A stretch of DNA of 62,777 nt, taken from Coriobacteriia bacterium (GTDB lineage Bacteria; Actinomycetota; Coriobacteriia; Anaerosomatales; SLCP01). The notes beneath the pieces were generated by a model. The model saw only the letters and a program-made list of their open reading frames with translations. It had not been told where the DNA came from and made no database searches. This document shows, piece by piece, positions 19,869-24,262 of the stretch. The stretch covers positions 1-62,777 of the forward strand of contig SKMN01000039.1 of NCBI GenBank assembly GCA_007121015.1, given 5' to 3'. Position numbers and translations under genes: made by a program. Each line of letters begins with the position of its first letter. Position 1 is the first letter of the stretch.

Positions 19869-20267
19869 ATGGCTGAGAACAAGGCAGTGTACCTCGGCAC
19901 CGGGCGACGCAAGACGTCGGTGGCCCGCGTGCGCCTCGTGCCGGGAACCGGTACCTACACGATCAACGGGCGTCCTGCGGCCGATTACTTCGGCAGGGAC
20001 GCGTACCTCACCTACTTCGAGCAGCCGTTCAAGGCGACCGAGACGGTAGGCCGCTTCGACGTAGTCGCGAAGATCCACGGCGGCGGTATCTCCGGCCAGG
20101 CCGGAGCGCTGCGCCACGGTATCGCCCGTGCGCTCCTCGAGGCCGGGGACGAGTACCGCGGCGACCTCAAGCGCGCCGGGCTGCTCCGTCGCGACCCGCG
20201 CATGGTCGAGCGCAAGAAGTACGGACTCAAGAAGGCCCGCAAGCGCCCGCAGTTCTCCAAGCGTTAG
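19869..20267 (+). CDS. rpsI: 30S ribosomal protein S9
   Basis: 132 residues. The C-terminal tail of S9 reaches the P-site tRNA anticodon. [31 protein letters not shown] and the basic ending [12 protein letters not shown] with the terminal Lys-Arg are present. Forms the usual rplM-rpsI pair. Confidence 0.97.
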
Positions 20268-20292
20268 GCCTGGCGCATCAAGATGCGAACGT

Positions 20293-20320
20293 CGGGACCC
20301 GTCCACCGTGGCGGGTCCCG
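20293..20320 (+). terminator. Terminator after rplM-rpsI
   Basis: CGGGACCCG (20293-20301) pairs with CGGGTCCCG (20312-20320) across a 10-nt loop that can itself close partly (CCAC/GTGG). It is followed by TGCGTTT, a weak T-tract. It lies between rpsI and glmM. Confidence 0.65.
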
Positions 20321-20346
20321 TGCGTTTCGAGGGAGAGGAACCTAAG

Positions 20347-21681
20347 ATGACGCGTTTGTTCGGCACCGACGGCGTTCGCGGCATAGCGAACGCGGACCTG
20401 ACCCCCGAACTGGCGTTCCGCCTCGGGGAGGCCGCAGGTCATTTCCTCGGCGACAAGGGTAGGGGCCGTATCGTCGTGGGCCGGGACACCCGGCGCTCTG
20501 GTGACATGCTCGAAGCCGCTCTCGTCGCGGGGGTCTGCTCGGGAGGGGCCGATGCGCTCGTGCTCGGTGTGGCGCCCACCCCCGCCGTGGCCTACCTGAC
20601 CCGGGAGCTCGGTGCCGACGGCGGGGTCGTCATCTCGGCCTCGCATAACCCCGCTCCGTACAACGGCATCAAGCTCTTCAGCCGTGAGGGCTTCAAGCTT
20701 CCTGACGAACTCGAGGACGAGATCGAGGAGTTCATCGTCACCGAACGCGATTGGGAGCGGCCGACCGGTGCGGCCGTGGGACGTGTCCGGGTGCTCGAGG
20801 ACGGTGTCGCGCGTTACGTCAACCACGCCATCGACGCCATCGAGGGCGACCTGACCGGCATGACGATCGCAGTGGACTGCGGCCACGGTGCCGCCTCGGT
20901 CGCGACGCCCGCCACACTCGAGGAGCTCGGTGCGACGGTCATCACGCTCAACTGCGAGTGGGACGGGATGGACATCAACGACGGATGCGGCTCGACGGAC
21001 CTCAACCCCCTCACCGAGATCGTCCGTTCGCACGAGGTCGACTTCGGCATCGCTCACGACGGCGACGCCGATCGCGTGATCGCGGTCGATGAGACCGGTG
21101 CGGAGATCGACGGCGACGTCATCATGGCCATCTGCGCGACGCACATGAAGCAGCGGGGCACGCTCGCGGGCGATACGGTCGTGAGCACCGTCATGTGCAA
21201 CCTCGGCTTCGAGGTCGCGATGCGCGAGCACGGCATCACGCTCGTCAAGACCAAGGTCGGCGACAGGTACGTGCTCGAGCAGCTCCAGTCCTCCGGCGCC
21301 GTGCTCGGTGGCGAGCAGTCCGGCCACATCATCTTCATGAAGCATGCCACCACAGGCGACGGACTCATCACCGCGCTCAAGCTCGCCGAGGTCATGCGCG
21401 CGACCGGCAAGCCGCTATCGGAGTTGAGCCGCGTCATGACCCGCTACCCGCAGGTGCTTGTCAACGTGTCCGTCGCCGACAAGGGGCGGCTCGGAGCGAG
21501 CGCCGCGATCGCCGAGGCGGTGCACGCCGCGGAGGCGCGCCTCGGTTCCGAAGGGCGCGTGCTTGTGCGCGCGAGCGGGACCGAGCCGCTCGTGCGCGTC
21601 ATGGCCGAGGCGTCCGACGCGCAGGCCGCATCAGGGGTCGTCGACGAGATCGTAGCGGTGGTCAGCGCCGAACTCGGCTGA
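20347..21681 (+). CDS. glmM: Phosphoglucosamine mutase
   Basis: 444 residues, normal for GlmM, which turns glucosamine-6-phosphate into glucosamine-1-phosphate for UDP-GlcNAc and peptidoglycan synthesis. The catalytic phosphoserine is Ser99 in VVISASHNPAPYNGIK; the metal loop DGDADRVIAVDE and the C-terminal phosphate site RASGTEPLVRVMAEA are intact. ATG 20347 follows GGGAGAGGAA. It lies just upstream of glmS, whose product supplies its substrate, with one small gene between. Confidence 0.96.
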   Translation: MTRLFGTDGVRGIANADLTPELAFRLGEAAGHFLGDKGRGRIVVGRDTRRSGDMLEAALVAGVCSGGADALVLGVAPTPAVAYLTRELGADGGVVISASHNPAPYNGIKLFSREGFKLPDELEDEIEEFIVTERDWERPTGAAVGRVRVLEDGVARYVNHAIDAIEGDLTGMTIAVDCGHGAASVATPATLEELGATVITLNCEWDGMDINDGCGSTDLNPLTEIVRSHEVDFGIAHDGDADRVIAVDETGAEIDGDVIMAICATHMKQRGTLAGDTVVSTVMCNLGFEVAMREHGITLVKTKVGDRYVLEQLQSSGAVLGGEQSGHIIFMKHATTGDGLITALKLAEVMRATGKPLSELSRVMTRYPQVLVNVSVADKGRLGASAAIAEAVHAAEARLGSEGRVLVRASGTEPLVRVMAEASDAQAASGVVDEIVAVVSAELG

Positions 21682-22090: not shown

Positions 22091-22096
22091 TATAAT
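22091..22096 (+). promoter_or_regulatory. -10 box of the glmS promoter
   Basis: A perfect TATAAT, preceded by TTGG, lies 22 nt after the Rieske gene. No good -35 box is at 16-18 nt upstream, where the sequence is GC-rich. Transcription would start near 22,103, about 55 nt before the predicted ribozyme cleavage site. Confidence 0.6.
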
Positions 22097-22156
22097 CTCG
22101 CGCAAGTCGGCGACGAGAGGAGTTGGTGCCTGGCACGGACCGTACGAGTTCTGCGA

Positions 22157-22300
22157 AGCGCCAGGACTGACGCGGGCGACACGGTGTCAGTCGACGAGGA
22201 GAGAGCTGATCGAAACACTCGGCGGATGGCTCTCCGGCCTGACCGGAGTCGTGACGTCACCGACAAAACCCGCGGGCGATCGCGGGGACAAAGCGGTGGC
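22157..22300 (+). ncRNA. glmS ribozyme (glucosamine-6-phosphate-activated self-cleaving RNA)
   Basis: The 366-nt leader of glmS holds a sequence that matches the glmS ribozyme core. Cleavage is expected between A22157 and G22158, before GCGCC (22158-22162). Stem P1 is GACTGAC/GTCAGTC (22165-22171, 22186-22192), followed by the invariant GACGAGGA (22193-22200). GAGAGC pairs with GCTCTC (22201-22206, 22229-22234), enclosing ATCGAA and TCGGCGGATG, both conserved; GGCG there can form the pseudoknot with GCGCC. The stabilising part is also present: CACCG/CGGTG (22258-22262, 22294-22298) around CCCGCG/CGCGGG (22269-22274, 22281-22286) and ACAAAG (22288-22293). The known ribozyme uses glucosamine-6-phosphate, the GlmS product, as cofactor and destabilises its own mRNA. 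Identification is by eye against the Bacillus subtilis element. Confidence 0.92.
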
Positions 22301-22334
22301 GGACCGGTATCCCCTCTTATGCGTGGGTCCCTCA

Positions 22335-22355: not shown

Positions 22356-22435
22356 CACGCGCCTAAGACCCCCAGTCATGCATGCTGCCGGTCGCGGTAC
22401 TCGTCGCGCCGGAAACGAGAAAGGCACCTGAGCCT

Positions 22436-24262
22436 ATGTGTGGAATCGTCGGATACATCGGACCCCGCCAGGCGAGCGACGTGCTGCTCGGTGGATTGGC
22501 CCGGCTCGAGTACCGCGGGTACGACTCGGCCGGTGTCGCGATCATCAACAGCGCCGAGATCGATGTCGTGCGCCGTGTCGGGAAACTCGTCAACCTGAGT
22601 GAGGCGATCGCCGCCACGCCGATCCCTGGCACGGTCGGCATCGGGCACACCCGGTGGGCGACCCACGGACGCCCCAGCGAGGAGAACGCCCACCCCCACA
22701 TCGACTGCACCGGCAGGATCGCGGTCGTGCACAACGGCATCATCGAGAACTACCTCGAACTGCGCGAGGAGCTTGCGCAGGCGGGACACATCCTGCGCAG
22801 CGAGACCGACACCGAGACCGTCGCGCACCTCGTCGAGGCGTACTACGACGGCGATCTCGTCGAAGCCGTCAGCAAGACCATCGAGCGACTCGACGGTGCG
22901 TATGCGCTCGGGGTCGTGCACCTCGACAGTCCCGGGACGCTCGTTGCCGCGCGCAAGGACTCGCCGCTCATCATCGGTGTGGGCGAGGGCGAAAGCATCG
23001 TGGCGAGCGATATCCCTGCCGTCCTCGAGTACACGCGTGAGGTGCTCGTGCTGGCCGATGGGCAGATCGCCAAGGTCACCGCCGAGGGCATCACCGTGAC
23101 CGATCTTGTCGGCACCGAGGTCGAGCCGGAGATGATCCACGTCGAGTGGGACCTCGAGGCGGCCGAGAAGGGCGGGTTCGAGGACTTCATGCTCAAGGAG
23201 ATATACGAGCAGCCGAAAGCCATCCGGGAGACGCTCAGGGGTCGCATGGGAGCCGACGGCCAGATCCAGCTTTCCGAGCTCCAGATGTCACCCGAACAGG
23301 TGGTCGCGATCGACCGGGTCTTCATCCTGGCGTGCGGGACCTCGTACCACGCGGGCATCGTCGCCAAGAGCCTCATCGAGCAGTGGGCGCGCATACCCGT
23401 CGAGGTCGAGGTATCGAGCGAGTTCCGCTACTCGGACCCGATCGTCGATGACGAGACGCTCGTCGTGGCGATCACGCAGTCTGGCGAGACCGCCGACACG
23501 CTCGCCGGCGTGCGTGAGGCGCGCGAGCGCGGCGCGAAGGTCATCGCGATAACCAACGTGGTCGGCTCACGCGTGACCCGCGAGTCCGACGGCGTGCTCT
23601 ACACGCACGCGGGCCCGGAGATCGGTGTGGCGGCCACCAAGACGTTCACCGCCCAGATCGCCGCGCTTACCGTGCTCGCACTGAAGCTCGCGCAGGCCAA
23701 AGGGATGTTGCCCGACGAGCGTGTCGAGAACCTGTGGGTCGAGCTCACCCGTGTGCCCGACATCGTCGAGGCGATCCTCGAGGACCTGCAGGCGATCGAC
23801 GATTGCGCGGCGGCCTACACTGACGTGTACTCCACGCTCTTCCTCGGCAGGGGCATCGGCGTACCCGTGGCGATGGAGGGGGCGCTCAAGCTTAAGGAGA
23901 TCAGCTACATCCACGCCGAGGCGTACGCCGCCGGCGAGATGAAACACGGGCCGATCGCGCTGATCAGCGAAGACGTCCCGGTCGTTGTCGTGGCGACGCA
24001 GGGAGCGACGTACGAGAAGGTGGTGAGCAACATCCAGGAGGTCCGCGCGCGCGGGGCCGAGGTGATCGCGGTCGCAACGCACGGGGACGACTCGATCCGT
24101 TCGCACGCGGAGCACGTGCTCTACATCCCCGCCACGCCCGAGGCGCTCTCCGCCATACCTGCGACGCTACCGCTCCAGGTGCTTGCGTACCGGATCGCCA
24201 AGCTACGCGGGTGCAACGTCGACCAGCCGCGTAACCTCGCCAAGTCCGTCACGGTGGAGTAG
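22436..24262 (+). CDS. glmS: Glutamine-fructose-6-phosphate aminotransferase (isomerizing)
   Basis: 608 residues, normal length. It makes glucosamine-6-phosphate from fructose-6-phosphate and glutamine, the first step to UDP-GlcNAc. Cys2 of MCGIVGYIGPRQ is the glutaminase nucleophile, with TRWATHGRPSEENAHPH downstream; two SIS domains follow (ACGTSYHAGIVAKSLIEQWA and GRGIGVPVAMEGALKLKEIS), and the invariant ending RNLAKSVTVE. ATG 22436 is fixed by the catalytic Cys2. Probably controlled by the ribozyme in its leader. acpS starts 3 nt later. Confidence 0.97.
   Translation: MCGIVGYIGPRQASDVLLGGLARLEYRGYDSAGVAIINSAEIDVVRRVGKLVNLSEAIAATPIPGTVGIGHTRWATHGRPSEENAHPHIDCTGRIAVVHNGIIENYLELREELAQAGHILRSETDTETVAHLVEAYYDGDLVEAVSKTIERLDGAYALGVVHLDSPGTLVAARKDSPLIIGVGEGESIVASDIPAVLEYTREVLVLADGQIAKVTAEGITVTDLVGTEVEPEMIHVEWDLEAAEKGGFEDFMLKEIYEQPKAIRETLRGRMGADGQIQLSELQMSPEQVVAIDRVFILACGTSYHAGIVAKSLIEQWARIPVEVEVSSEFRYSDPIVDDETLVVAITQSGETADTLAGVREARERGAKVIAITNVVGSRVTRESDGVLYTHAGPEIGVAATKTFTAQIAALTVLALKLAQAKGMLPDERVENLWVELTRVPDIVEAILEDLQAIDDCAAAYTDVYSTLFLGRGIGVPVAMEGALKLKEISYIHAEAYAAGEMKHGPIALISEDVPVVVVATQGATYEKVVSNIQEVRARGAEVIAVATHGDDSIRSHAEHVLYIPATPEALSAIPATLPLQVLAYRIAKLRGCNVDQPRNLAKSVTVE

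Follow-up and report, generated by a model that had tools for sequence, protein, structure and literature searches.

The closest described counterparts of the RNA reported here are the glmS riboswitches of B. subtilis, B. anthracis and T. tengcongensis, which make up Rfam family RF00234. In B. subtilis, glucosamine-6-phosphate (GlcN6P) triggers a self-inflicted cut in the glmS message, the downstream fragment carries a 5'-OH end, and RNase J1 degrades the cleaved message (PMC3997798, PMC7125110). In a further study, mutation of the ribozyme lifts B. subtilis glmS mRNA more than 50-fold, and the gene order there is cdaA-cdaR-glmM-glmS (PMC6171935). Most glmS ribozymes have a GNRA tetraloop with a pyrimidine in second place on P4a, as described by Barrick and Breaker (PMC2258182). 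A second known system is relevant to the leader as a whole: STAB-SD elements bind the 3' end of 16S rRNA, start no translation and block RNase J1 (PMC4113751).

The locus lies in a window (the whole stretch of DNA analysed, 62,777 nucleotides) from a Coriobacteriia bacterium. It shares with the RF00234 examples the cleavage block, P1, P2, P2.1, P2.2 and P3, a P4/P4a module with a GNRA loop, the place in the glmS leader and a glmM gene upstream. Unlike them, it belongs to a member of the Actinomycetota, has GC-rich stems, and is separated from glmM by a Rieske gene. A further apparent difference, judged from actinobacterial leaders, is a Shine-Dalgarno (SD)-like element 5' of the cut that is conserved in the window's order. 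The ribozyme itself is an ordinary member of the known family, with no oddity; the main value of the locus beyond that lies in a natural series of losses, the SD-like element and the nagB-linked relatives.

The ribozyme and its gene context

A cmscan search of the whole window returns a single Rfam match above gathering, the glmS family RF00234, at 103.9 bits with E 3e-23, where 37 bits is the gathering threshold. The match covers the full model, positions 1-167 (Table 1), and the 1.94-Mb genome contains one copy. This strong, full-length match bears out the identity proposed in the preliminary description, whose named motif blocks are all present in their places and in order; the span given there, 22157-22300, falls inside the Rfam match but omits about 10 nt at each end. 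The segments A/GCGCC, GACGAGGA, ATCGA and UCGGCGG, all within 22157-22228, are invariant or almost so among relatives, and the GCGA loop on P4a is of the GNRA type with a pyrimidine in second place. The ribozyme is about 144 nt long, with about 134 nt from its last helix, and 124 nt from the end of the Rfam match, to glmS.

Covariation was assessed in an alignment of 15 ribozymes from the same order (14 distinct sequences), counting the P2.2 pseudoknot pairs as well. In this alignment 95.7% of cells pair, and both sides change at 19 of 39 pairs among the 14 distinct relatives, a count that none of 500 shuffles reached. Double-change cells number 58, compared with 18.7 ± 3.4 after shuffling and at most 11 when the partner is slid, and most of the compensatory change sits in P1, P2 and P4, although P3 and P4a are likewise among the helices that it backs. 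All four P2.2 pairs are formed in 14 of 14 distinct sequences and never vary, so that P2.2 gives no covariation information; the core pairs are likewise invariant. Such invariance of P2.2 and the core is the expectation for the glmS ribozyme family. The covariance model, the anatomy, the gene context and the covariation all mark the RNA in the window, as judged from sequence, as a complete glmS ribozyme.

Table 1. Features of the glmS region in the window, and loci of family f17 with a ribozyme before nagB
Feature	Position	Strand	Basis or remark
glmM, phosphoglucosamine mutase	20341-21681	+	PGM_PMM domains I-IV
Small Rieske [2Fe-2S] protein gene, 122 aa	21701-22069	+	PF00355, 57.8 bits
TATAAT, extended -10 box TGGTATAAT of glmS promoter	22091-22096	+	sequence; kept in relatives
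SD-like element GAGAGGAG, possible STAB-SD	22115-22122	+	sequence; order-wide conservation
glmS ribozyme / glucosamine-6-phosphate riboswitch	22146-22311	+	RF00234 full-length match
Predicted self-cleavage site, A22157 / G22158	22157-22158	+	A/GCGCC aligned to model; invariant in 15 aligned relatives
GCGCC block	22158-22162	+	sequence
P2.2 pseudoknot holding cleavage site, CGCC/GGCG	22159-22162 with 22221-22224	+	invariant in 14 distinct sequences; pairing scheme from PMC7125110
P1 stem	22165-22173 with 22183-22192	+	double changes at 6/9 pairs
GACGAGGA block	22193-22200	+	sequence
P2	22201-22205 with 22230-22234	+	encloses P2.1; double changes at 3/5 pairs
ATCGAA block	22209-22214	+	sequence
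P2.1 (Rfam register)	22210-22213 with 22219-22222	+	model match
TCGGCGGATG block	22219-22228	+	sequence
P3	22235-22239 with 22247-22251	+	model match and covariation count
P4	22255-22261 with 22295-22301	+	double changes at 6/7 pairs
P4a/P4.1, GCGA cap (GNRA tetraloop)	22269-22275 with 22280-22286	+	model match
ACAAAG block	22288-22293	+	sequence
Ribosome binding site of glmS, GAGAAAGG	22417-22424	+	sequence just 5' of ATG 22436
glmS, glutamine-fructose-6-phosphate transaminase, 608 aa, Met-Cys start	22436-24262	+	TIGR01135, NF001484
Ribozyme before nagB, locus L132	1934-2087 (G518:C127:4933-5086)		nagB 2114-2905
Ribozyme directly 5' of nagB, other loci			L158, L160, L166, L167, L170-L172, L175, L176, L255, L256

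The gene downstream encodes GlmS (P0001; TIGR01135 848 bits, NF001484 861 bits), with SIS and GATase domains, the enzyme that opens the synthesis of amino sugars for the cell wall. In a longer ORF starting at 22382, the extra 18 aa would bury the N-terminal Cys. The closest named GlmS comes from a 'Coriobacteriia bacterium' MAG (79%), and the protein groups with those of Slackia and Collinsella, in agreement with the Coriobacteriia-like host suggested earlier. The glmM gene was said to adjoin the ribozyme; it does lie upstream, but a Rieske-ferredoxin gene intervenes. The glmM ORF spans 20128-21681, of which the domain scan covered the part from 20341, and its exact start is not settled. As a separate observation, the Rieske gene is missing between glmM and glmS in a genome of the same genus (L003) and present there in another genus of the family (L116).

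The -10 box upstream of glmS is common to relatives with and without the ribozyme. A generic sigma-70 scan found no scoring promoter site at the glmS leader, because no good -35 is present. Since the TGGTATAAT box ends at 22096, transcription would be expected to start near 22103. Counted from that presumed start, the leader before the cut is about 55 nt; from the -10 box to the glmS ATG there are 345 nt. A terminator scan found none on the + strand between ribozyme and glmS, which fits control by cleavage.

The reading we hold with great confidence is that glmS is controlled by GlcN6P-triggered self-cleavage followed by RNase J decay of its mRNA, in a system inherited vertically within the order. 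A glmS mRNA starting near 22103 would carry the intact ribozyme; when plentiful, GlcN6P would bind it as catalytic cofactor and bring about self-cleavage at the A22157/G22158 junction. The glmS coding region, left on a 3' fragment with a 5'-OH end, would then be broken down, with RNase J as the most likely nuclease, and as an outcome GlcN6P would limit its own synthesis. Ligand, cleavage chemistry and decay route are inferred by analogy with the ribozyme family. A gene for RNase J is present in the genome, scoring 578 bits where the cut-off is 400; since RNase J homologues are widespread, this lends the decay route weak support. There is no NagB relative in the genome at E <= 1e-30, which leaves GlmS as the evident source of GlcN6P. 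Seven relatives keep glmS without a ribozyme, so that control by the ribozyme must be dispensable.

An SD-like element ahead of the cleavage site

The leader upstream of the cut contains an SD-like element whose AGGAG core follows the first position of the -10 box by 27 nt and precedes the cleavage site by 40 nt. Within the order, 45 of 49 leaders have such a core, against 16.4 expected from dinucleotide shuffles, a count inflated by the relatedness of the sequences. In the spacer 3' of the ribozyme it is found in 17/49. The mean anti-SD energy over the 49 leaders is -10.18, compared with -6.88 for shuffled sequences (standard deviation of the shuffled mean 0.25); these energies were computed with a general anti-SD, since a search of the assembly did not turn up the 16S 3' end of this genome. 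By computed energy the element binds the anti-SD more strongly than does the true glmS ribosome binding site (-7.97). Across the order its spacing from the first position of the -10 box is nearly constant at about 30 nt (mostly 27-33), and the cut follows 33 ± 4 nt further on. Each of the 15 groups (the named loci and 14 families) has it in at least one member, and 12 of these in all members, while the 62-nt segment around it is 52% identical versus 44% when shuffled. The motif was chosen after viewing the leaders, where a purine tract stood out 5' of the cut, and tested on the same sequences. The nearest thing to an independent test is a second order of the class; there the element occurs in 21 of 24 leaders versus 4.5 expected, with an energy of -11.14 versus -6.92.

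What could such an element do? It may be a STAB-SD that shields the glmS message from RNase J, acting as a second leader element alongside the ribozyme. Near the 5' end of the mRNA it would hold a small ribosomal subunit that does not go on to translate, and self-cleavage would remove the shield with the 5' fragment, so that the cut would create a new 5' end and strip the protection at once. This idea refines the cleavage-and-decay mechanism rather than opposing it, and we give it somewhat less than an even chance of being right. Several observations speak for it, namely the excess of the element in both orders, its regular spacing from the -10 box, its occurrence in some member of every group despite the modest identity around it, a 5' segment free of strong folding (z 0.74), and the match to the published description of STAB-SD elements (PMC4113751). 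Only 4 of 45 such elements have a start codon at normal spacing behind them, below the 7.6 expected. The resemblance to the STAB-SD of cry3A from Bacillus thuringiensis extends to the strength of the SD-like sequence and its place close to the 5' end of the mRNA, the usual lack of a start codon at normal spacing and an RNase J in the genome; unlike in cry3A, a ribozyme that responds to a metabolite would here separate the putative stabiliser from the coding region. Weighing on the other side are the kinship of the leaders, the choice of the motif after inspection, the presumed rather than mapped transcription starts, the use of a general anti-SD, and the chance-level occurrence of the element in other families of the phylum (26/61 versus 29.5 expected). 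If the element is a stabiliser, it would help to account for the destruction of the message by cleavage within a leader that is not translated.

Alternatively, the element could serve an upstream ORF. In the window, a GTG at 22126 after the SD-like element could open a frame of 14 codons (22126-22170, MPGTDRTSSAKRQD) that ends inside P1, which keeps a leader peptide conceivable for this genome, and the leader of the same-genus locus L003 has an ATG version. We consider a leader peptide improbable, given that start codons at normal spacing are rarer than expected, that frames and their lengths vary among leaders, and that the frame is not conserved further out than the genus. Pairing of the 5' leader with downstream sequence was also tried and rejected: pairing with the glmS ribosome binding site (7 nt in the window, GGTGCCT with AGGCACC) was no better in self than in swapped pairs (P 0.26), and the same held for the whole spacer (P 0.17).

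Distribution and history in the Actinomycetota

Among the relatives examined, the ribozyme is present in 48 of 61 genomes. When the class was sampled at a completeness of 90% or more, it occurred in 37 of 52 genomes of the same order, whereas the 196 genomes of other orders yield 2 full matches and one weak fragment (G461; a core match of 39 nt, 26 bits). Slackia, Collinsella and Enorma, the named gut relatives, have no ribozyme near glmS. In a phylum sample the ribozyme is present in 67 of 396 genomes, 61 of them outside the class and from at least 13 families, and a MAG named Acidimicrobiia carries one at 97.7 bits. Its presence in the Actinomycetota is therefore broad and patchy. The proposal that this locus would extend the known distribution holds in so far as the class's other orders seldom have the ribozyme; it is, however, common in its own order, where glmS leaders of other genomes largely share it, and found in many other families of the phylum. 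A literature search that did not take in the 2011 census of the family found no paper joining the glmS ribozyme with Coriobacteriia or Rubrobacter. As a side observation, two loci of family f41, L134 (G094) and L251 (G117), have low-scoring ribozymes (50-55 bits) with long matches of 233-243 nt; they probably carry extra inserts and are possible structural variants.

The history of the ribozyme was read from a GlmS tree of 98 rows, obtained by a quick search and with some long branches, so that its deeper joins are unsure. GlmS proteins of the order form one clade (SH-aLRT 99) within a class clade that includes Slackia and Collinsella (95). Ribozyme carriers sit on all early branches of the order's clade, gaps are nested within it, and losses leave the promoter in place; on these grounds the tree favours a ribozyme that was ancestral in the order, inherited vertically and lost cleanly several times. 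The seven relatives without a ribozyme have an orthologous GlmS (76-82% identical) and retain the promoter, and in their leaders (L116, L117, L118-L121, L122) the -10 box is 38-121 nt from the ATG, compared with 345 nt in the window. On the tree, losses with an orthologous GlmS are found at no fewer than four separate points. The glmS leaders of relatives lacking a match show no trace of the ribozyme at E <= 1, which excludes hidden or decayed copies there and means that stricter filters did not cause those gaps. A different route is seen in five relatives of family f12 (L125, L126, L128, L129, L131), whose GlmS is about 50% identical and falls in its own distant, long-branched clade; in these, glmS has apparently been replaced and the ribozyme lost along with it. 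The gaps in the order stem from clean deletion, GlmS replacement or incomplete assemblies.

The preliminary description had raised transfer as an option, and a recent horizontal acquisition from Bacillota, of the ribozyme with or without glmS, would account for its patchiness in the phylum and its near absence from the class's other orders. The well-supported GlmS clades with carriers on all early branches, and a promoter common to relatives with and without the ribozyme, make such an event very unlikely, and the GlmS tree goes against that suggestion. We attach practically no weight to a decayed or chance RNA without activity, in view of the E-value of the match, the invariant catalytic blocks, the compensatory changes and the complete disappearance of lost copies in relatives. 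The locus shows the glmS ribozyme as a trait of long standing in one actinobacterial order, passed on by vertical descent, and the natural losses, with promoter and glmS kept, offer a ready comparison of glmS control with and without it.

Ribozymes before nagB in family f17

A motif test scored 112 loci as having the ribozyme 5' of glmS on the same strand and placed only two before nagB, both in family f17 of the same class. In this family the ribozyme occurs in 23 of 140 genomes, all in two genera (g294 and g343): it lies 5' of nagB only in 12 genomes, 5' of glmS only in 10, and in both places in one (G664), so that 13 of 24 ribozymes precede nagB (Table 1). These ribozymes share the catalytic core and the upstream SD-like element with the window ribozyme; they differ in their lower scores (60-80 bits), a weaker P4a and the frequent place before nagB. 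In G518 the nagB product, glucosamine-6-phosphate deaminase, matches TIGR00502 at 384 bits. The 12 genomes with a nagB-linked copy only have no ribozyme detected before glmS. Almost all nagB-ribozyme genomes keep a ribozyme-free glmS elsewhere; none was found in G626, which is 77% complete. In the f17 genomes with only a glmS-linked copy that NagB is missing, the sole relative there being a distant one (about 39%).

In a tree of the ribozymes, a single branch (93/93) divides nagB-linked from glmS-linked copies, and each side contains both genera. This pattern suggests that the duplication is older than the separation of the two genera and that differential loss followed. The cluster in G664 (L157, G664:C18:21000-28500), in the order ribozyme-glmS-ribozyme-nagB, is possibly the ancestral arrangement after duplication. 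The consequence for regulation would depend on the direction of the enzyme: a nagB message cut in response to GlcN6P would create positive feedback if NagB only degrades GlcN6P, whereas an enzyme working towards synthesis would turn it into negative feedback.

The 2011 census of the glmS ribozyme family reportedly placed all but two members before glmS. Against this near-exclusive link, the copies before nagB would be a case of a second enzyme under the control of a ribozyme that senses GlcN6P; among the papers surveyed on the glmS ribozyme and nagB, no report of such a link was found. The findings on both leaders could be joined by viewing the Coriobacteriia ribozyme as a metabolite-triggered decapitation device that severs from glmS a 5' SD-like stabiliser, one that ribosomes would bind but not translate and that would keep RNase J away; the module of element and ribozyme would have been duplicated in another family of the class and come to stand before nagB. 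As a whole we think this reading less likely than not; within it, GlcN6P feedback on nagB would make sense only if NagB works synthetically.

Two minor features of G518 deserve mention. A GlmU-like gene follows directly after nagB (L132, 3096-4226), scoring about 61 bits to GlmU models, far below their cut-offs; it hints at an amino-sugar synthesis operon. Elsewhere in the same genome, a ZMP/ZTP riboswitch (L130, 1027-1106, - strand; 51 bits against a gathering score of 39) lies on the opposite strand 5' of the ribozyme-free glmS.
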